From NCBI RefSeq assembly GCF_005938745.2, contig NZ_VCBX02000002.1, forward strand, positions 124,001 to 188,000: DNA of 64,000 nt, in the 5' to 3' direction. Shown in pieces: positions 10,544-58,868 of this stretch. How positions within the stretch are numbered: the first letter of the stretch is position 1; each line of letters starts with the position of its first letter. Made by a program: the position numbers and the translations under genes. The DNA comes from Rhodococcus sp. KBS0724 (lineage in GTDB: Bacteria; Actinomycetota; Actinomycetes; Mycobacteriales; Mycobacteriaceae). The notes under the pieces are model-generated. The model was not told the origin of the DNA. It did no database searches and saw nothing but the letters and a program-made list of their open reading frames with translations.

Positions 10544-11110
10544 ATGACCACTCACGCACACGCCCGGCGGACTCCACGACCACAAACCCCTTGCGCGAAA
10601 CCATCCGACATCCATTCCCGACTCGCGACCGGTGCCCGCACCATCATCGTCGACGCCGATCAACTGTTCGAACTCGACGACACACACTTCACCACCGCGA
10701 AACAAGCCTGGACGATGCGCATCACCGGCATTTCCCAGGTGAAAATCAACCTCACGAAGAAACTCCCCCCACGAGTCACGATCGTCGCCTCAGACTCATC
10801 AATAGTTCAGGTCACCGGCTTTACTGAACTCCACGCCTACACAAATGCCACAGTGGACGCTTTCGATAATTGCAGGGTCACCGGCCACAACAACTCGACC
10901 ATCAACGCCTGCGACAAGGCCGAGGTCAACGCCATGGAGAACACAATGGTCAACGCCTACGACATGGCGACAGTTCATGCCACCGGGAATGCGGTCGTCC
11001 ACGCCGCGGACAAGACGAAAGTGTTCCTCCACGACAATGCTGTCGCCACAGCCGTGCGCGGAGTCACCGTTTTGGGTCCCAGTCGACACAACGTCACCGT
11101 CCGCCCGTGA
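10544..11110 (+). CDS. octapeptide-repeat protein, predicted beta-solenoid
   Basis: A 188-residue protein. After an N-terminal ~80 residues of ordinary composition, residues 81-176 form twelve consecutive 8-residue units, such as HAYTNATV, NACDKAEV, NAYDMATV, HATGNAVV and HAADKTKV. The pattern is [HND]-A-x-[DN]-[NK]-x-x-V, with Val/Ile in the last position of nearly every unit. Such strict short-period Asn/Asp/Ala/Val repeats usually form right-handed beta-helices. No signal peptide or transmembrane segment is seen. Function unknown. It is a stand-alone gene between the AbiE pair and the partition region. Confidence 0.7.
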   Translation: MTTHAHARRTPRPQTPCAKPSDIHSRLATGARTIIVDADQLFELDDTHFTTAKQAWTMRITGISQVKINLTKKLPPRVTIVASDSSIVQVTGFTELHAYTNATVDAFDNCRVTGHNNSTINACDKAEVNAMENTMVNAYDMATVHATGNAVVHAADKTKVFLHDNAVATAVRGVTVLGPSRHNVTVRP

Positions 11111-12039
11111 AATTCTCGCAGATTGCCCGCAGCTTCAGCGGAAACTGAGTTCCACCCGATTCTCTCGATACACGACCGTGGATTCACCGCACTTCGGGCA
11201 AATCTCACCGACGACGCGCGAATCGACTATCGAATCCAAGTCGGCTGTTGCCGAACAACTTCGCAAACGCGCCTGGATGCCTGCTGCACTGCCCCAAGTG
11301 CAGCGCTGCACTTTCTAGCAGCACAATGCGCGAGTCGGCCAAGAACAGGTGCACGGACACTCTTGGACGCACACCCTGGCATGTGCCGAAACAGCAGAGA
11401 ATCAGGCACACAATTTCCTTGCAGGGTGTCATGCCTCGTCGGATTACCTCCACAGCCGTGGCTTGCCATTGGCACTCCTTAACCGACGAAAATCCCCCAC
11501 CTCCAAGAGGTGGGAAACTTTCGTCATGTCTAGGCCTCAAGTTTTAGTCCTCGCTCCACTGGTTATGCCTTCTCGTGCGGCGGCAAGTTCTCGAGCGGGG
11601 CCGCCGCAGTGGGTCCACCTCCCGTGCGGTCACAGCCGGAGTTGGACGAAGGGGAAAGTGCATCGCGTCGGACCGATGCGTACCCACCGGCGCTGCGCTC
11701 ACAGGTCTAGCGTCGGTGGGTCCCGCCGACCAAGCCCCACCCCGACGATCGGGACAGGCGTAGGAAACAAATGCAGGGGCTGGTTTCGAATTCGATGCCA
11801 CTGGTTGGATAACTACGGTCGCGCGGCGTTGCAGAACAGTCCCTGGCTACACGCGATGAATGAGGGCGATATCGGACGCGAGTTTTCGCTTCGTCTGGCC
11901 TGCCTGTCGGTCGTCATTCACCGGAACTGGGCTCACCTGGTCTCCGCCCGGCACGCCCGCTCTGTCCTCACCTGAATCCGTGAAGCGCTCGATCTCGGTG
12001 CTGGATGAGCGGGATGGGCGCAAGTTTTCTTGCACCTTG
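11111..12039. other. long gene-poor stretch
   Basis: About 930 bp in which all frames look non-coding. It contains a strong hairpin at 11485-11525 of the type seen at IS200/IS605 right ends, but no convincing TnpA or TnpB remnant in any frame. It may be the remains of a small mobile element. Confidence 0.4.
11485..11525. repeat. two-tier hairpin, possible IS200/IS605-type end
   Basis: Outer arms GACGAAA (11485-11491) and TTTCGTC (11519-11525) enclose two 4-nt internal loops and a perfect inner 8-bp stem CCCACCTC/GAGGTGGG with a CAA loop. Imperfect subterminal hairpins like this are typical of IS200/IS605 ends; it is not followed by a T-run, so a simple terminator is less likely. Confidence 0.4.
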
Positions 12040-12183
12040 GCACTCACAATTGCATGTCTGCAAGCAGGCGCTGCTGCACGCATATTTGCGGTCGTTCATG
12101 CGCGCATACTTGCACGCATAGGTGCTTGTATACATGCACGCATAGATGCGGGCATGTATGCGTGCGTACTCAAAGGCATGAAT
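12040..12183. repeat. 12-bp phased repeat array, left (12 units)
   Basis: Twelve contiguous 12-bp units without a break in register. Eleven start with GC, and many resemble GCACGCATANNT (for example the units at 12076, 12112 and 12136). The units are degenerate but the period is exact, which makes every translated frame show a 4-residue pattern and produces spurious ORFs. The array lies just downstream of the DUF2637 gene and shares its unit type with the larger array at 13500. A DNA-binding site array (centromere or origin iterons) is the natural interpretation. Confidence 0.85.
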
Positions 12184-12272
12184 GCGCTGGTCGCGACCGG
12201 CACGGCTGGACGATGGGTTCAGGAGAATTGCTGCATCGTGGTGACATGACCACCCCTCCCCCATCGTGTCCC

Positions 12273-13127
12273 TTAACCGACATTCGTTAGCTGGCGTCCT
12301 TGAGGGACGAGCGGACGGCTTTCTTTCGCCTCGTCGATCCACCGATAGATGGTGGATGGGGACCGGTCGACGGCTGCTGCGATGTCTGTCATCGACGATC
12401 CACTCGCGTTCAGGGCAAGTGCATACTCTTTTCTGTCCTCATTTGAAGCGAATTTCTTGATTTCGGACTCTGAGAGCTCTTCTGGCGCATTGAAGTCTTC
12501 TTTGGATGGATCGGTCGAGGGATCCCCCGTTACTTCCTCCTCGTTCGCCTCAGGGATAGCCGGCAGAGGGATTGCTGTTTCATTTTTGCTGGCGATCAAG
12601 GAGGGAGTGGGATGTGGTCGTGATCGACGAGCCAGAATCGTCAGTCCATGGGATGAGAACAGCAGGGCTACCGGTGCGATGGTTGCGATGACAGCGGCCA
12701 ACCATGGATTGAATCCTGGCGCGTGGTTGGTATACGCGTGCAGTGCGTTGCCGAAGATGCTGGCGGTCGCGGAGAAGATCAGCACTATCCAGAAGAAGCG
12801 ACGATCGCTTCTCCCCTTCTCCCCTGGCGCGTCAGCAAGCCAGACGACCGAAATTGTGGCTTGCAGAATGGCGCCGTCGAGCAGGATTGCGAACAACCAT
12901 GAGAGCTCTCTAGGTTGTCCGACTTGCGTGAAGAGGTCCCACAAGGCCGCGAAGCTGAGTACGAATGAGGCCACCGTGATGACTCCAGTGAGCACTACAG
13001 CGCTCCAGAACGGCGCTCGACTGGGACTGGTGGTGGCCTCGTCCCGCGCAGAATTGTCGGTTTGATCGTCGTTCTGGGTGCTGCCGGCTGCGCTATCTGA
13101 GTGGAGCGAGTTCCGAAATGGAGGCAC
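12273..13127 (-). CDS. DUF2637 membrane protein with C-terminal helix-turn-helix
   Basis: A 284-residue protein from a GTG start with a good GAGAGGA ribosome-binding site 7 bases upstream; the longer open frame upstream is unlikely to be translated. About 50 acidic/polar residues are followed by four predicted transmembrane segments (from FWSAVVLTGVITVASFVLSF to AAVIATIAPVALLFSSHGL), matching DUF2637, a family frequent on actinomycete plasmids near transfer and replication genes (SpdB-like). The last ~60 residues contain a helix-turn-helix, MTDIAAAVDRSPSTIYRWID. It is thus a membrane protein with a cytoplasmic DNA-binding tail, flanked on both sides by 12-bp repeat arrays. A role in tethering or segregating plasmid DNA at the membrane is inferred. 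Confidence 0.8.
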   Translation of the reverse strand: MPPFRNSLHSDSAAGSTQNDDQTDNSARDEATTSPSRAPFWSAVVLTGVITVASFVLSFAALWDLFTQVGQPRELSWLFAILLDGAILQATISVVWLADAPGEKGRSDRRFFWIVLIFSATASIFGNALHAYTNHAPGFNPWLAAVIATIAPVALLFSSHGLTILARRSRPHPTPSLIASKNETAIPLPAIPEANEEEVTGDPSTDPSKEDFNAPEELSESEIKKFASNEDRKEYALALNASGSSMTDIAAAVDRSPSTIYRWIDEAKESRPLVPQGRQLTNVG

Positions 13128-13499
13128 TGTGCCGTCCTCTCTTATGTCGGTTGTGGTGCGATTCGTATGGTTTCGCAGATACGAAATGTGAGAAGTCGAG
13201 CGAAAAGGCAGGGGAGACCAGACGGTGCTCAGTCCCACTGCGGCACTCGCAGCTCTCGCAAATGGTGGTTCGTGGCGGTTTTCGGCGATCGATCGTGCGA
13301 TTATCCGTGAGCGGATTGCGAAATTTTGCGGCTTCGGACGAGCTAGTTGAGCTGAGAATATCCCATCATTTTCGCATCTCAGTTCGCGGTAACCGCTGGT
13401 AGAAGACGTTTCTTGCTGAGATGGATCGCAGCGTTTTCGCATCTCTGCGGTGCTGGCAATTCTGCAAGATTTCGTTCCCAAATGCAAGAACAAACACAA
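13128..13499. other. intergenic region before the large repeat array
   Basis: About 370 bp upstream of the DUF2637 gene. The open frames here are poor in coding character. The ribosome-binding site of the DUF2637 gene lies near its left end, and the 12-bp array starts at its right end. Confidence 0.4.
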
Positions 13500-13979
13500 G
13501 CAAGCAAGAATGCTTGCAAGCTTGCGCGCATCATCACGTGCATCTGTTCGTGCATTGTTTCACGCACACATGCTTGCATATTTGCTGTCATGCAAGCATG
13601 AACAAGTGCTCGCAAACATGTAATTAAACAAACCAGCAAGTTTGCATGCTTCTACGCATGTATAGATGCTCGCATGTATGCGTGAAAGCTTGCTCACTTG
13701 TTTGCACGCATTCATGTTTGCAATTTTGCTTCAAATTTTACAAGCAACTTTGCGCGCAAATTTGCTTTCATGTGTGCGTGCAATAACGCATGTTTAATTG
13801 CTTGCAAACTTGCCAACACCAAAGCATGTTTACTTGCATGTGCGAATGCGCGCATACTTGCACTCATACACGCAAGCGTGCGCGCATCGATACGTGCATG
13901 CTTGCATAGTTGCTAGCAAGTGTTCATGCGAGTATGGTTGCGTGCATGAGAGCGCGCAGCCGTGCATGCGCGACCGCGC
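13500..13979. repeat. 12-bp phased repeat array, right (40 units), candidate centromere
   Basis: Forty consecutive 12-bp units in perfect register over 480 bp. Thirty of 40 begin with GC, and the rough consensus is GCNYGCAWNNTT (examples: units at 13512, 13572, 13800 and 13848). Individual units differ widely, so this is not a recent tandem duplication but a maintained periodic signal. It ends about 150 bp before parA and lies between the divergent DUF2637 and parA genes, the expected place for a ParB-binding centromere. A replication origin with iterons is the alternative. The apparent ORFs crossing it owe their 4-residue periodicity to the 12-bp unit. Confidence 0.9.
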
Positions 13980-14129
13980 GCAAGAACCGGTACGACGATT
14001 TCGAGAAGACATCCATTTCCAGAAAATCACCGGCCGCCCCAATGACTCTGACTTCACGCTGATGTTCGCAGCCGTTGATCGGCAAGTGATCCCAGCACCC
14101 GCCGTCGATACCGAAAGTGAGGTGCGGGC

Positions 14130-14918
14130 ATGACCTCGCACAGACAAGCACGCGTACTTGCGATCGCACTCCAGAAGGGCGGCGTCGGAAAGACGACGAC
14201 AGCTACCAACCTCGCCGTCGAGTTGACCCTCCTCGGACTCAAAGTCCTCCTGATCGATCTGGATCAACAGGCGAACGCAACGCAGGGACTCGGAATCGAA
14301 CTCGGCAGCGACGACGCCACCATGTACGAGGTACTCCACGAAGACCGCTCGGAGCGTGTCGCTCTCACCGAAGTCATCAAGGCCAGCACACACGGACCGG
14401 ACGTTGCCCCCGGCGACCTTGCACTGCGCAAGCTCGAACGAACCGGCCTCGGTGCCGGAGGGCAAGCCCGGTTGGCACGTGAACTCGACGCATTGACCGG
14501 TTACGACATCGTCGTCATCGACTGCCCACCGTCTTTGGGGGAGTTGACCACTGCAGCCATCGCAGCAGCGGACAGTGTCCTCGCCACCGTCTCACCAGGC
14601 GCAGACGAACTCAAAGCCCTCGTCGGGCTGGGAAACACAGTGCTCGATGTTCAGGAAGGACTGAACGCCGACGTCGACATCCATTTCGTGCTCGTGACGA
14701 ACTTCGACGGACGCACCCAGCTCGCAAAGGACGTTCGCAAGAACCTACGACGCGACTGGCCGGACGAGTACCTCGGCGAGATCTCCCAAACCATCCGCGT
14801 GGGTGAGGCAACAGCGAAACAGATCCCGGTCTCGCTCCATGCCCCCAGCAGCACCGCAGCCGGCGACTACAAGAGAACAGCACGACAGATCGCTGAGAGG
14901 ATGAAGATCAATGTCTAA
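14130..14918 (+). CDS. parA: ParA-family partition ATPase
   Basis: A 262-residue ParA/MinD-type ATPase. The deviant Walker A box KGGVGKTTT is at residues 16-24, followed by LLIDLDQQANAT (switch region) and VVIDCPPSLGELT (Walker B-like). There is no N-terminal DNA-binding domain, so it is a short type Ib-like ParA. It moves plasmid copies over the nucleoid together with a centromere-binding partner. It overlaps the next gene by 8 bases, indicating coupled translation, and lies directly after the 40-unit repeat array. Confidence 0.93.
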   Translation: MTSHRQARVLAIALQKGGVGKTTTATNLAVELTLLGLKVLLIDLDQQANATQGLGIELGSDDATMYEVLHEDRSERVALTEVIKASTHGPDVAPGDLALRKLERTGLGAGGQARLARELDALTGYDIVVIDCPPSLGELTTAAIAAADSVLATVSPGADELKALVGLGNTVLDVQEGLNADVDIHFVLVTNFDGRTQLAKDVRKNLRRDWPDEYLGEISQTIRVGEATAKQIPVSLHAPSSTAAGDYKRTARQIAERMKINV

Positions 14919-15273
14919 TTCGCCCGGAATCGGGTCTACCAGCACTCGACCATCCCGCGCGCAGCGCAGAGAAGAAGCAGCCAGGGTACTTCCGGAGCCT
15001 GCGCCCCGGGAAGTCGCTCAGCAACCCACTCAGGTGCCCGCTCCGGCTGCAGCACGCCAAGCTCCTGCGGCCACCACAAGCCTGGAACCGAAGCGTGGCC
15101 CCGCCAAGGAACCACTCAATACCCGGATCCTGGTGAACACCTCCAAGCGCCTCAACTGGTTCACCAGCAAGCACGGATACGCGGTCACTCAGGTCGTCGA
15201 CGTCGCACTGCAAGAGTTCCTGGACCGAAACAACGTCCCGGACGTCGACGCAAACGGGGAAATCACCGAATAG
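14911..15273 (+). CDS. small ParB-like centromere-binding protein
   Basis: A 120-residue protein overlapping parA. The first ~70 residues are a disordered Pro/Ala/Arg-rich tail, which in type Ib partition proteins stimulates the ParA ATPase. The last ~50 residues (NTRILVNTSKRLNWFTSKHG and VTQVVDVALQEFLDR) have the size and pattern of a ribbon-helix-helix-type dimerisation and DNA-binding domain. The likely ligand is the adjacent 12-bp array. The ParB assignment rests on position, size and this pattern. Confidence 0.75.
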   Translation: MSNSPGIGSTSTRPSRAQRREEAARVLPEPAPREVAQQPTQVPAPAAARQAPAATTSLEPKRGPAKEPLNTRILVNTSKRLNWFTSKHGYAVTQVVDVALQEFLDRNNVPDVDANGEITE

Positions 15274-15279
15274 CTCACG

Positions 15280-15468
15280 GTGGGGGAGCGAAGGCAGGGG
15301 AACGAGCCAGTCGCCCAGTTCGACCGCGACGACACGATTCCAACCGAAGAACTCCCTCCTCGAGAAGAACTCGACACGATTCCGACCCGATATCCACCGA
15401 AGCCGACACCCATGAGCGAAGTACGCGATCAAAACCGCACAGACAACCAGGAAGGGGAGTGGCCATGA
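15280..15468 (+). CDS. small acidic hypothetical protein after parB
   Basis: A 62-residue ORF from a GTG start 7 bases after the parB stop. It is rich in Asp, Glu and Pro, with the near-repeat DTIPTEELPPREELDTIPTR. It could be the third gene of the par operon or a chance frame. It ends 6 bases from the convergent rep gene. Confidence 0.35.
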   Translation: MGERRQGNEPVAQFDRDDTIPTEELPPREELDTIPTRYPPKPTPMSEVRDQNRTDNQEGEWP

Positions 15469-15473
15469 CCTAG

Positions 15474-17396
15474 TCAGGTTGACGGCCCAGCATCCAACAA
15501 CGCGGCGTAATAGGCCTCGTCCGGAGGGTTCGCAGCGTCCTCGACAACTGCATAGAGATCAAGAGGCAAATCAGGTGGGGTACGGGCATCTTCCCGCGCA
15601 GCAAGCCACTCACGCCAGACGATGCGCTCAGCCCGGTGCCTAACGACCCGCTCACGCACTGCCGTTGCCAATCCGTGCAAATGCGCAATCGTGTCCAGAT
15701 CGACCGAACCTAGAACAATCTGGTTGTTTTCCACAGCGATCAGACCGGCAACACGAAGATCCAGCAATGTTTCGTAGCCACTGGTTCGACCGATTGAAGC
15801 TGCCGCGAGTACATCTTCGATGGTCAAGGGTGCTGCCGATGAAGCAACGACGTCATAGACAGCCTTGTGCCGCCATCCGATCACGCTCCAAGCTGGATGT
15901 ACTGATTCAATCTGCAACTCCTGCCTGGAGAACTCAACCTCGTCGTTCGATCCCTCGCTCCCCGCCGTGACAAGCGCGTAACGATCCGGATTTTGGCCCA
16001 TTCCTCGTTCGATCAGAAGCAATGGAGAACCTGGAGTTTCCCTAAGACGCCCCAGTATCGACCAGACCGTTGACTCCGGAAGCAGCCCCGCTGCAATTGA
16101 GAGCGATCGCCCACCTACACCGACAACGGGCACACCATCGACCTCATGTCCTGAGACCGCGGCAGACCAGGCAAGCGCCTGAATGACCGCATAGGTCGTC
16201 CATCTGTCTTTCCGACCTTGGTATTCACGGGTGACCCAGTTGCTTGCAGTCGTAAGCCACTTCCGTAAAGCCGGACTGTGAGTCCCCCCTGTGTGCTTTA
16301 TCTTGTGCCCGGTATCCCGGACAGGTTCTGGAAGGGACGATGCGACCCACTTAAGTGACTGAAGAGCGTCCCGGAGTATGGCCTGATCCGGATTGGCATA
16401 GTGAACGTACGCAGCCCGTAGACCAGCCCACTCTGACGTGTATGAGCGAGCAACAACGTTGGCCGGCGTGGCTCCGATCAGGATCTCGTGAGTAACGACC
16501 GATTGACGAGCCTCGGAACGAGATGGCCATCTCGTTGTATCGAGCCGACCTGTCTCAGCGAACAAAGTCACCGAATCAGGCGGTGTTGACGCGGCACGGC
16601 AGAAACTCGGATGCAGACGCACATGATCGCCGGCACCGATAATTCGGTCGCTCACGTGTGATGCGTGGATTTCAGCCTGGACTCCACTTGTACGCGCATT
16701 CGGAGTCGGGATACCGCCGAGCAGGGCAGCGAGACGGGGCAAAGTTTCTGGGTCGGATCTAACGGCAAAGGAGTCCACTGCTGTGGCTAGATCTTCGACA
16801 AGCCGGCGATGACCGCCTTCGCGGCATGCCGATCCAGGAACAGTGATGCAGCCCGTCGCTGCATTCGTCATGGGAGTGATGTCCAGCGTGGGCAGCCTCA
16901 CAGCGAGCTGGTCCAACAGCGAGCGAAGCTCATTGACAGCGATCGATCTCCCCGGTGCCAACGGGACCAAGACGTGCCGACCGCCACTGCTCGACACATC
17001 GACCACCGCACGGCCGCCACATTCCCCAAGCCACGTCAAAACCCGGGCGACATCCTCAACAACCGCCCCGTGACCATGGTGTTTAGCGTCGAAATCGAGT
17101 GCAATGACCGCAGCTCTACCACGCAAGAACAACGGGACAGCCGCCGGCACAACGGGAAGTTTCGTCGTCAAAGGACGTGCCGACACGAAGCCTTGCCGCG
17201 CCACGTCATAGAGCCGCATCGACCGACGAGCAGCAAGCAGTGGAGCAAGACGGGACCATATGCGGTCCGGCGTCGACTCAATCAAGCCGACACGAACGGT
17301 AGATCCTGTACCAATTTCAGGGCGCGATGTACCCTGAGACATGTCCGCCAAGACAGTCCCTTCGGGGAAGTGCAACACGAGTCGCGAGCTAGTCAC
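15474..17396 (-). CDS. plasmid replication protein with primase-like (AEP) motifs
   Basis: A 640-residue protein. Residues about 95-145 show the two conserved signatures of archaeo-eukaryotic primase folds: VIALDFDAKHHG (Asp101 and Asp103) and SSSGGRHVLVPL (the s-x-H motif, His141). A later LDITPM may give the third acidic residue. The C-terminal half has helical, winged-helix-like segments (TIEDVLAAASIGRTSGYETL) suitable for DNA binding. The architecture suits a Rep initiator with primase activity. It is convergent with the par operon and preceded on its own strand by an RHH regulator gene. The start could be residue 1 or Met19. Confidence 0.65.
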   Translation of the reverse strand: MTSSRLVLHFPEGTVLADMSQGTSRPEIGTGSTVRVGLIESTPDRIWSRLAPLLAARRSMRLYDVARQGFVSARPLTTKLPVVPAAVPLFLRGRAAVIALDFDAKHHGHGAVVEDVARVLTWLGECGGRAVVDVSSSGGRHVLVPLAPGRSIAVNELRSLLDQLAVRLPTLDITPMTNAATGCITVPGSACREGGHRRLVEDLATAVDSFAVRSDPETLPRLAALLGGIPTPNARTSGVQAEIHASHVSDRIIGAGDHVRLHPSFCRAASTPPDSVTLFAETGRLDTTRWPSRSEARQSVVTHEILIGATPANVVARSYTSEWAGLRAAYVHYANPDQAILRDALQSLKWVASSLPEPVRDTGHKIKHTGGTHSPALRKWLTTASNWVTREYQGRKDRWTTYAVIQALAWSAAVSGHEVDGVPVVGVGGRSLSIAAGLLPESTVWSILGRLRETPGSPLLLIERGMGQNPDRYALVTAGSEGSNDEVEFSRQELQIESVHPAWSVIGWRHKAVYDVVASSAAPLTIEDVLAAASIGRTSGYETLLDLRVAGLIAVENNQIVLGSVDLDTIAHLHGLATAVRERVVRHRAERIVWREWLAAREDARTPPDLPLDLYAVVEDAANPPDEAYYAALLDAGPST

Positions 17397-20354: not shown

Positions 20355-21102
20355 ATGTGGTCGGAGATCCCAACTGGCGGCACACCTGCACCTAAATGTC
20401 TCGAATCTCGATGGGGCTGATCCGGCTGCTCGCCGCGCGCATGTTTGCGTGCAGTGATGCGCGCATCGTTGTTTTCGAGGCTGCGAACTACCAATTCTGG
20501 GGTGAACCGAGATGTGTTCGGTATGTCAAGCAGGCTTTTCGAGTTCTCGAGAGGATATCGACGCGAACCAACTCCTCCTGCGCCCCGGCCCGGGGAGTTG
20601 ATGGATTCCTGAACCGACATTACTGGGTTCGGATTGACTGTGAGCGTGGATGTTTCGTGCGCAGTAAGGTTTTCGCTGTGCGAGCCCGAATTCTTACCAC
20701 GGGCGTGTCGTCGACCGGTGTGGGGAGAGAGTTGCAGGTGGCTCATTATAGAGGGTGAAGCGCAGAGGGACTCGCATCTCGAGGCCAGGGATGGCGGTGT
20801 GTACGTAGCTCGAGAAACTATGTCACGAAATACGAATGCCGAGTTGGGGTGGGTTTGCCAGCAAAGTGCGATGAACAACCTTCGGTCGACTGGACCTGCA
20901 ATCATCCTGACATACCAACGAACGTCATCTGCCAGGTGCACGCACCGGACGCTGATGCGCGGCCGGTTGGGTGCAGATCATGTTGGTGTGGTGAGGGTTT
21001 GAACTTCTGAACTGTAGTGACTTCGCGTCCTTGTCGATTATTTGTGTGAGTGAGTCTGATCGACTCCTAGCAGGTTCGCAGGCACCGCAGTGGGATATGC
21101 GC
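20355..21102. other. gene-poor region containing three 12-bp repeat units
   Basis: About 750 bp without a credible gene; the long minus-strand frame across it has poor composition. It contains a short run of the same 12-bp repeat type found at the par locus (20435-20470) and ends in the promoter of the Phd-type antitoxin gene. Confidence 0.4.
20435..20470. repeat. three further 12-bp units of the par-locus type
   Basis: Units GCGCGCATGTTT, GCGTGCAGTGAT and GCGCGCATCGTT in exact register. They match the GCNYGCAW form of the arrays at 12040 and 13500, 6.5 kb away. Confidence 0.5.
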
Positions 21103-57965: not shown

Positions 57966-58868
57966 CTAGTTCTGTAGGGATGACTCGTATGCGGGTGCAC
58001 CCGAAGGAATTTCGCTGAGCGCAGTGGCCAGTTCATCGACGGTCCACCGTGAATCTTTGTCATAGGCAGACTGCTCGGTCCACCCTCGTTCCCACCCGAT
58101 ATGCCCGCCTTTGACGCTGAAGACCTGACCCGAGATCTGGCAATTGGCGGTCGCCAAGTAGGCGACGAGTGGGGAAATATTTCCAGGATCGAATACATCA
58201 AATCCGCTTGTAGCAGCGTCTAGTTCGGCGAATCCAGGCGTACTCAGAGTGAGCCGCGTTCGAGCCACCGGAGCGATCGCGTTGACCCGGACGCCGTAAC
58301 GCTCGAGTTCACGCGCAGCGATGACGGTCATGGCGGCTATCCCGGCCTTCGCGGCTGCATAATTGAGTTGGCCAGGGTTCCCGCGAAGGCCCGAAGGTGA
58401 CGAGGTGTTGATGACGGACCCGGCGACAGTGTTACCTGCCTTCGCTTCGCGCCGCCAGTGATTTGCTGCTGAACGTAGCGGGCAGAAGTGTCCCTTGAGG
58501 TGGACATCCATGACCGAGTCCCATTCGGACTCAGACATATTGACCAGCATCCGGTCCCTCAGAATGCCAGCGTTGTTGACGAGTATGTCCAGGCCTCCGA
58601 AGTGGCCTACTGCGAGCTGAACCATTTCGTCGGCCTGATCCCAGTTGGAAACGCTACCGACGTGTGCGATTGCATTGCCGCCACGTGCAGAAATCTCGGC
58701 CACGACCTCGTCCGCGGGCGTCGCCGAGTCCGCGGAACCGTCGGACGCGGCGCCGTTGTCGTTAACCACCACGTTGGCACCGAGCTTTGCCAGGAGTAAT
58801 GCATGTTCGCGTCCGAGTCCGCGACCGCCGCCCGTGACGATAGCGGTGCGACCGACCAGAGTTGCCAT
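57966..58868 (-). CDS. SDR-family 3-hydroxyacyl-CoA dehydrogenase-like
   Basis: A 300-residue short-chain dehydrogenase starting MATLVGRTAIVTGGGRGLGR. It shows the GGGRGLG nucleotide site, NNAGILRDRMLVNMSESEWD, the catalytic Ser/Tyr/Lys set in INTSSPSGLRGNPGQLNYAA followed by AKAG, and a C-terminal extension. The NDNGAASDGSADS and RDRMLVNMSESEWD stretches are characteristic of the 17beta-HSD4/MFE-2 SDR branch, which oxidises 3-hydroxyacyl-CoA. It fits after the MaoC hydratase in beta-oxidation. It is divergent from the TetR gene. Confidence 0.88.
   Translation of the reverse strand: MATLVGRTAIVTGGGRGLGREHALLLAKLGANVVVNDNGAASDGSADSATPADEVVAEISARGGNAIAHVGSVSNWDQADEMVQLAVGHFGGLDILVNNAGILRDRMLVNMSESEWDSVMDVHLKGHFCPLRSAANHWRREAKAGNTVAGSVINTSSPSGLRGNPGQLNYAAAKAGIAAMTVIAARELERYGVRVNAIAPVARTRLTLSTPGFAELDAATSGFDVFDPGNISPLVAYLATANCQISGQVFSVKGGHIGWERGWTEQSAYDKDSRWTVDELATALSEIPSGAPAYESSLQN

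Follow-up and report, generated by a model that had tools for sequence, protein, structure and literature searches.

The proposed partition locus

This analysis concerns a set of repeat arrays beside the partition genes of a large Rhodococcus plasmid. The window, that is, the whole 64,000-nucleotide stretch analysed, corresponds to bases 124001-188000 of contig C2 (490,908 bp) of Rhodococcus sp. KBS0724, the genome of which amounts to 7.25 Mb in three contigs. The feature of most interest is array A, a run of 40-41 contiguous 12-bp palindromic units (WTGCNNGCAWNN) at 13498..13989 that belongs to no strand. Its 3' edge lies ~140 bp ahead of parA (14130..14918, + strand), and parA is followed by a gene for a small ParB-like protein (14911..15273, + strand). 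On the other side a gene for a DUF2637 membrane protein with a C-terminal helix-turn-helix (HTH) is divergent from parA (12273..13181, - strand; PF10935 E 7.2e-9, PF13384 E 1.1e-6; start codon not settled). Array B (12014..12181, no strand) lies downstream of the DUF2637 gene; it consists of about 14 units of the same palindrome and is a proposed second centromere block. For reasons set out below, arrays A and B very probably make up the centromere of a type Ib-like plasmid partition system, with a ParB of ribbon-helix-helix (RHH) type, and array A is probably its operator as well.

ParA is a Walker-type ATPase of 262 residues with its P-loop near the N-terminus. PF13614 (E 6.9e-38) covers residues 8-183 and therefore leaves no room for an N-terminal domain; no N-terminal HTH was found. 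The motor matches the Walker-type ParA families and not the actin-like ones, which sets the locus apart from type II ParMRC (R1-like) systems. A small Walker-type ParA without an N-terminal HTH, together with repeats upstream of the par operon, is what is expected of a type Ib locus.

The ParB-like protein has 120 residues and is the proposed reader of the array. It has no match to any Pfam family at E 0.1, and this includes PF18064, the C-terminal domain of pCXC100-type ParB. Foldseek and VIA-align gave weak matches and no decisive relative. However, AlphaFold2 places an extended-helix-helix arrangement at the C-terminus (helices 75-88 and 92-106, pLDDT 84-94 for the block) and a flexible tail before it (pLDDT below 50 at residues 29-53). 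The N-terminal tail is rich in arginine, and R13, R16, R19 and R20 are invariant across 17 aligned homologues. Profile matches to two RHH proteins were sub-threshold (E 0.93 and 1.3). Taken with the structure prediction, these matches lead us to treat the protein as a predicted RHH protein.

A 12-bp palindromic lattice

The earlier note had described 40 units of 12 bp running from 13500 in unbroken register, 30 of them starting with GC. Re-reading of the sequence confirms this. Identity at lag 12 over 13500-13979 is 0.498, far beyond what 1000 dinucleotide-preserving shuffles yield (mean 0.251, standard deviation 0.022, maximum 0.321; z 11.1), and the period is also visible at lags 24, 36, 48 and 60. 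Lags 4 (0.416) and 8 (0.447) are strong as well because each unit contains two GC steps 4 bp apart. The true register is nevertheless clear, since the mean core match (of 6) is 4.58 in register compared with 3.33 when the register is moved by 4 and 3.62 when it is moved by 8. At lag 7 identity falls under the shuffle level (z -3.8).

One property absent from the earlier note is the palindromic nature of the unit. Column counts of the units give a mirror-symmetric sequence, YWTGCR followed by YGCAWR, in a frame that starts at 13497. Its asymmetry is 0.121, whereas permuted columns average 0.364 (P 0.0006). The unit being palindromic, the array has no direction. The firm part of the unit is the core TGCNNGCA, which is conserved among the units while the spacer positions vary. 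At least four of the six core bases are retained in 32 of the 40 units and all six in ten of them. The phased signal spans about 13498-13989, slightly beyond 13500-13979, and the units at 13906-13989 are weaker, with 2 to 5 of the 6 core bases. A coding repeat was considered and rejected, as no listed open reading frame (ORF; 60 aa or more) spans 13500-13979. The region 11500-15500 contains no Rfam match at gathering level that would indicate an RNA element.

The second array that the earlier note had placed at 12040-12183 is real. Identity there is 0.500 at lag 12 (z 5.7) and 0.608 at lag 24 (z 8.0), per-unit scores put the phased signal at about 12014-12181, and the palindromy holds when array B is tested alone (P 0.029). 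A matching short array occupies the corresponding position in the Rhodococcus erythropolis plasmid pRLCBG43 (L002 6109-6276).

Conservation of phase

The nearest match to the window in the plasmid collection is pRLCBG43. Aligned over 470 columns, the two versions of array A are 59.1% identical, and the only gap inside the alignment is exactly 12 long. The parA genes are 94.4% identical and the stretch between array and parA 95.8%. On the DUF2637 side identity is 68% in the intergenic spacer, which has 73 gap columns for 300 aligned, and 81% in the DUF2637 gene. Judging from these alignments, array A belongs to a diverged block or borders on it. It is therefore not claimed that the array evolves faster than its surroundings, given that both the spacer and the gene on that side have diverged too. 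The case for selection on spacing, as the earlier note had proposed, is instead that odd-length gaps are absent from the window/pRLCBG43 array; it does not depend on the rate of substitution. The comparison thus speaks in favor of such selection.

Might the period be no more than a fossil? Tandem arrays hold a period through their origin, and a lag-12 identity of only about 50% in array A could be read as passive repeat DNA of duplicated copies that has no protein reader. However, the pRLCBG43 array differs at 41% of positions and has still kept its phase but for one whole unit, in contrast to the gaps strewn through the adjoining spacer. The core is also kept while the rest of the unit varies, and further plasmids carry the unit next to homologous genes. 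A passive repeat is accordingly extremely unlikely.

The frozen phase does not extend to all lattices. In another 12-bp family (L282/L283) the lattices are 71.6% identical with gaps of 12 and 1, and parA is 97.7% identical; single-base gapping is seen in L283/L285 too. The gaps depart from whole units in L276/L277, L275/L276, L265/L266, L268/L269, L278/L279, L286/L287 and L286/L288, as well as in L003/L218, and odd gaps are seen in several 5- and 9-bp pairs and in the L286-L288 family. As a general rule, then, a frozen phase was rejected. So was palindromy as a rule for all lattices, for which P was <0.05 in five of 13 other lattice regions (L267, L282, L283, L284 and L285) and not in the other eight.

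Among more distant relatives the pitch changes. A match to the RHH protein was found in 19 of 401 genomes of the family. At nine more distant loci (L218-L226) a weight matrix built from the window's arrays prefers period 12 in two and period 8 in five. By the same matrix L220 and L223 have no clear 8- or 12-bp array, and L225, read by eye, has one stretch of each kind. In L003 the register slips and period 8 is preferred in one test. These comparisons suggest that the core is kept widely and that the 12-bp pitch is confined to the nearer clade, in which the phase is kept.

The array follows the parB-like gene

A search of 28 genomes of the genus gave 22 matches to the 120-aa ParB, spread over 10 genomes, of which the window's own is one. 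The weight matrix, made from the window's two arrays only, was applied to the 400 bp ahead of each of the 21 other matches, and to five stretches taken from four named plasmids (L002, L003, L005 and L004, the last both before parA and after parB). Phased copies at spacing 12 were found in all 26 sequences, each above all 200 of its own shuffles. Of the periods 8-24, 12 bp was the best in 23 of the 26; period 8 was the best in L024 and in both L004 sequences. A parA matching that of the window (E at most 1e-40) exists in just one of the 28 genomes, namely the window's own. Elsewhere the parB-like gene is accompanied by short arrays even though no matching parA exists there, so that it is the parB-like gene that the array follows. 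The earlier note's first choice of reader, the small ParB, gains from this comparison, in which the 12-bp period accompanies the gene on pRHL2 without a parA of the window's type in the genome or an annotated DUF2637 gene in the 12 kb fetched.

The arrays ahead of the 21 homologues and in L005 have 4-7 units. Hexamers such as TAGNRT act as -10 elements, and TAGNRT occurs within 40 bp after the last unit at 13 of these 22 short-array loci, compared with 19 of 1931 forty-base control tiles from the same loci. This is suggestive of what the operator of an autorepressor would be expected to look like. Arrays adjoin parAB in pRLCBG43, in R. fascians A21d2 (L003), in G318 (L218), in R. ruber pYYL1.2 (L004, with a better fit at 8 bp) and at some of the more distant loci, which bears out the prediction that the array would stand beside orthologous parAB genes elsewhere.

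The earlier note had also named the DUF2637-HTH protein as a second possible ligand, and one could imagine that this membrane protein reads the array and so tethers the plasmid to the membrane. Its gene has arrays on either side, both here and in pRLCBG43. Of 23 places with a DUF2637 gene in 10 genomes, 16 have an AAA_31 (ParA-like) gene no more than 4 kb away. However, in pRHL2 the array is next to an RHH gene, no DUF2637 gene is annotated in the 12 kb fetched and the genome has no parA of the window's type. In L003 the DUF2637 gene is downstream of parB whereas the array is upstream of parA. L010 has the gene but no matrix match, with a weak 24-bp signal inside the gene only. Reading of the array by the DUF2637 protein is thus unsupported and very unlikely. 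Nevertheless, the linkage suggests that DUF2637 is a par-linked membrane protein and a possible partner of par systems, for which no par role was found in the literature searched; it is a candidate for an unrecognised partner. One other repeat lies near a gene of this kind. In Rhodococcus sp. SGAir0479 an array of 16-bp repeats (CGTTGCAAC-like) separates the parB-like gene of the plasmid from the DUF2637 gene (L009:5425-5737).

Arrays ahead of parA on related plasmids

A wider survey covered 24 parA loci on contigs smaller than the chromosome, from nine other genomes and the window's own. It took 17 of the 18 such matches of one set (leaving out G011:C2) and seven from two other sets (leaving out G012:C2:61646, G012:C5:462995 and G012:C6:85833). 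With the window, L002, L003 and L218 added, 28 loci were scored for the best period signal in the 420 bp ahead of the P-loop region, each with 100 shuffles. These loci are not independent, and grouping by eye on ParB similarity gives about eleven kinds. The best upstream period reaches z >=6 in 23 of the 28 and >=8 in 20, and it exceeds all 100 shuffles in 26. The five below z 6 are L268, L271, L274, L275 and L280. As a control, upstream regions of 86 other ORFs from the same loci were scored, and none reaches z 6 (maximum 5.3). The periods are 5, 9, 12 or multiples of these, with 8 in L003. When five partner proteins were scanned for PF18064, one was above the cut-off, two were below and two had no match. 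Similar arrays of other pitches stand ahead of parA on most of the related plasmids surveyed. In a set of plasmids from a single genus, the same place ahead of parA is taken by centromere-like arrays of considerable length whose pitch and core vary. A further array, in Nocardia plasmid pFMUON74, has 9-bp repeats of another core (TAGTG-like) upstream of parA (L011:5485-5809).

The survey bears on two alternatives. Iterons are common in plasmid origins, and array A could be a set of them, bound by a Rep protein and serving as the origin. The tandem repeats do stand near a primase-like gene (15474-17396). However, the Prim-Pol match of that gene is weak (E 0.019) and under its cut-off, and the unit recurs beside an RHH gene where the downstream genes differ (weak Tap/Tpg-like matches). 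In addition, the tested region precedes parA in all 24 surveyed loci, with z >=6 in 19 of them. Replication iterons are therefore a very unlikely identity for the array, although it may conceivably serve in replication as well as in partition. Two gene pairs were noticed in this context. Downstream of the RHH gene of pRHL3 is a two-gene unit (L008:6198-8914) with weak Tap- and Tpg-like (telomere) matches far below curated cut-offs, and a similar pair follows the DUF2637 gene in L003 (8384-11086; Pfam scan only).

The other alternative is that the array is an operator and nothing else, through which the RHH protein represses parAB, with no centromere role. The 4-7-unit arrays with -10-like sequences ahead of RHH genes that lack a matching parA are just what this would predict. 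However, few units suffice for an operator, whereas array A has about forty and array B is ~1.9 kb away from parA. Moreover, long arrays (hundreds of bp) precede parA in most surveyed loci. A role as operator alone is highly improbable.

A proposed centromere and operator

How might such a centromere work? The small ParB would bind as an RHH dimer, one dimer per 12-bp palindrome, with the two-stranded ribbon of the dimer reading TGC-NN-GCA. Adjacent dimers would touch and bind cooperatively, so that about forty of them over 480 bp would form one continuous protein-DNA filament. At 10.5 bp per turn, a 12-bp step would turn this filament by about 51 degrees per unit. Arginine-rich tails jutting from the filament would reach nucleoid-bound ParA and raise its ATPase activity, and this activity would move the plasmid. 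Occupation of array A would at the same time repress parAB. The repeats upstream of the par operon would in this way act as centromere and operator together.

One core at two pitches

It has long been asked how several large plasmids are kept distinct within one cell, and the arrays may have something to say about it. On three plasmids (G016:C2, G003:C9 and G012:C5) a parA of 260 aa is paired with an RHH-like ParB (103-112 aa), and a 9-bp lattice extends over 450-855 bp upstream. These 9-bp systems and the window's 12-bp system have the core TGCNNGCA in common, and N-T-R-[IV] is found at the predicted DNA-reading strand in the ParBs of both. Scored in groups of four units with the window's core matrix, array A gives 41.0 at 12 and -9.4 at 9, but also 36.7 at 8. 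The 9-bp arrays score about 30 at spacing 9 but no higher than 8.6 at 12, and between 9 and 12 the two pitches are mutually exclusive by these scores. The window-type core is absent by matrix scoring from L282, L285, L276, L286 and L281.

A related core is found even closer by. Contig C3, a plasmid co-resident with that of the window, has a weaker 9-bp upstream period (z 5.2), and the window's core matrix scores 24.5 there at spacing 9 compared with -1.2 at spacing 12 (shuffles reach 13.5 at most). The ParB of C3 matches PF18064 (E 3.4e-8) and also PDB entry 3no7, which we take to be the ParB of pCXC100. One cell may therefore hold one related core at two pitches.

Could it be that lattice pitch, and not the motif alone, partly sets the identity of large plasmids in this genus? 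In this hypothetical scenario the spacing fit of neighboring ParB dimers would decide which ParB assembles where, and this in turn would determine which plasmids can share a cell. The idea is tentative and, as things stand, somewhat doubtful. Nevertheless, there are at least two kinds of lattice with one core at two pitches, so that the question of letters or spacing is directly testable by changing spacer length alone.

Short 12-bp TGCNNGCA arrays also occur away from detected RHH genes of the window's family. They are scattered on G016:C2 (L085-L090, nine places in the stretches fetched) and found on G003:C9 (L091), on pRHL1 at 559.7 kb (L092) and on G012:C5 (L093), with similar flanking sequence in some. 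On G016:C2, G003:C9 and G012:C5 they share the plasmid with a parA that has a 9-bp lattice ahead of it. A possible role for these short arrays is that of satellite sites, bound by the 9-bp ParB or by some other protein.

Other repeats on the plasmid

Beyond arrays A and B the window has a minor four-unit array of the 12-bp motif (20433..20480, no strand). Its four-unit score is 18.0, a value also reached by the highest-scoring of 10 shuffles of the entire 491-kb plasmid, and as a possible satellite site it is only suggestive. Another short array of the motif, at C2:445375-445422, scores 23.9 against the same best shuffle. A matrix match at C2:389293 was rejected as a GATCGCTT microsatellite. 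A scan of genome contigs for three perfect units was set aside, since the matches listed were spread across many phyla. To the left of the arrays, 10753-11113 has a 24-bp period within an ORF (10544-11110, 188 aa) that encodes an eight-residue protein repeat, and pRLCBG43 has a similar signal (L002 5401-5737). At 58681-58850 the lag-12 identity is raised (about 0.45) and the lag-4 signal is absent.

Comparison with known systems

The known systems are described here from excerpts of the sources cited. In pSM19035 the RHH protein omega binds contiguous repeats that overlap the par promoters; the repeats are 7-bp non-palindromic heptads in blocks of 7-10 and in both orientations, and at least four contiguous heptads are needed to activate ParA (PMC9499535). 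The window shares with it the contiguous repeats and, by prediction, the RHH ParB. However, the window's unit is a 12-bp palindrome present about 40 times in one block, and its ParB belongs to another family.

An actinobacterial parallel is mycobacteriophage RedRock, where parS-L and parS-R, each with eight 8-bp direct repeats, flank parAB (PMC7157519). The likeness is an actinobacterial parABS system with repeats flanking parAB, and the difference is in the unit (8 bp as opposed to 12 bp) and the copy number (eight as opposed to about 40). On the basis of the figures excerpted, the tandem centromeres of pSM19035 (7-10) and RedRock (8) contain far fewer contiguous units than array A, which would therefore suit structural work on ParB filaments. 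RedRock is closer to the R. ruber pYYL1.2 arrays, which prefer 8 bp, than to the window, and a search of 50,697 phage records at E 1 gave no homologue of the window's ParB.

The centromere repeat of pCXC100 is 9 bp long. The resemblance here is to C3, the ParB of which matches PF18064 and 3no7, whereas no Pfam family matches the window's ParB, and the window's lattice repeats every 12 bp and not every 9. Like the window, pCXC100 has a small ParB, of RHH type, and a direct-repeat centromere upstream of the operon (PMC5016525). The RHH centromere protein ParG of TP228 has a regulatory N-terminal tail, and the repeats of parH are upstream of the genes; however, they are in both orientations with AT-rich separators, and the excerpt describes no 12-bp palindromic lattice (PMC5016525). 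For the type Ib class as a whole the centromere is upstream of the operon and the small protein, with an arginine-finger tail and an RHH domain, is also the repressor (PMC5016525).

The earlier note had known of no described centromere of this form. In its broad sense this has to be given up, since there are known centromeres of tandem repeats that have RHH ParBs as their readers. In its narrow sense it stands, as no 12-bp palindromic lattice centromere was found in the literature searched. In outline, pSM19035, RedRock and the type Ib class work alike, and the window's array differs from them in its unit, its palindromy, its length and the family of its ParB.
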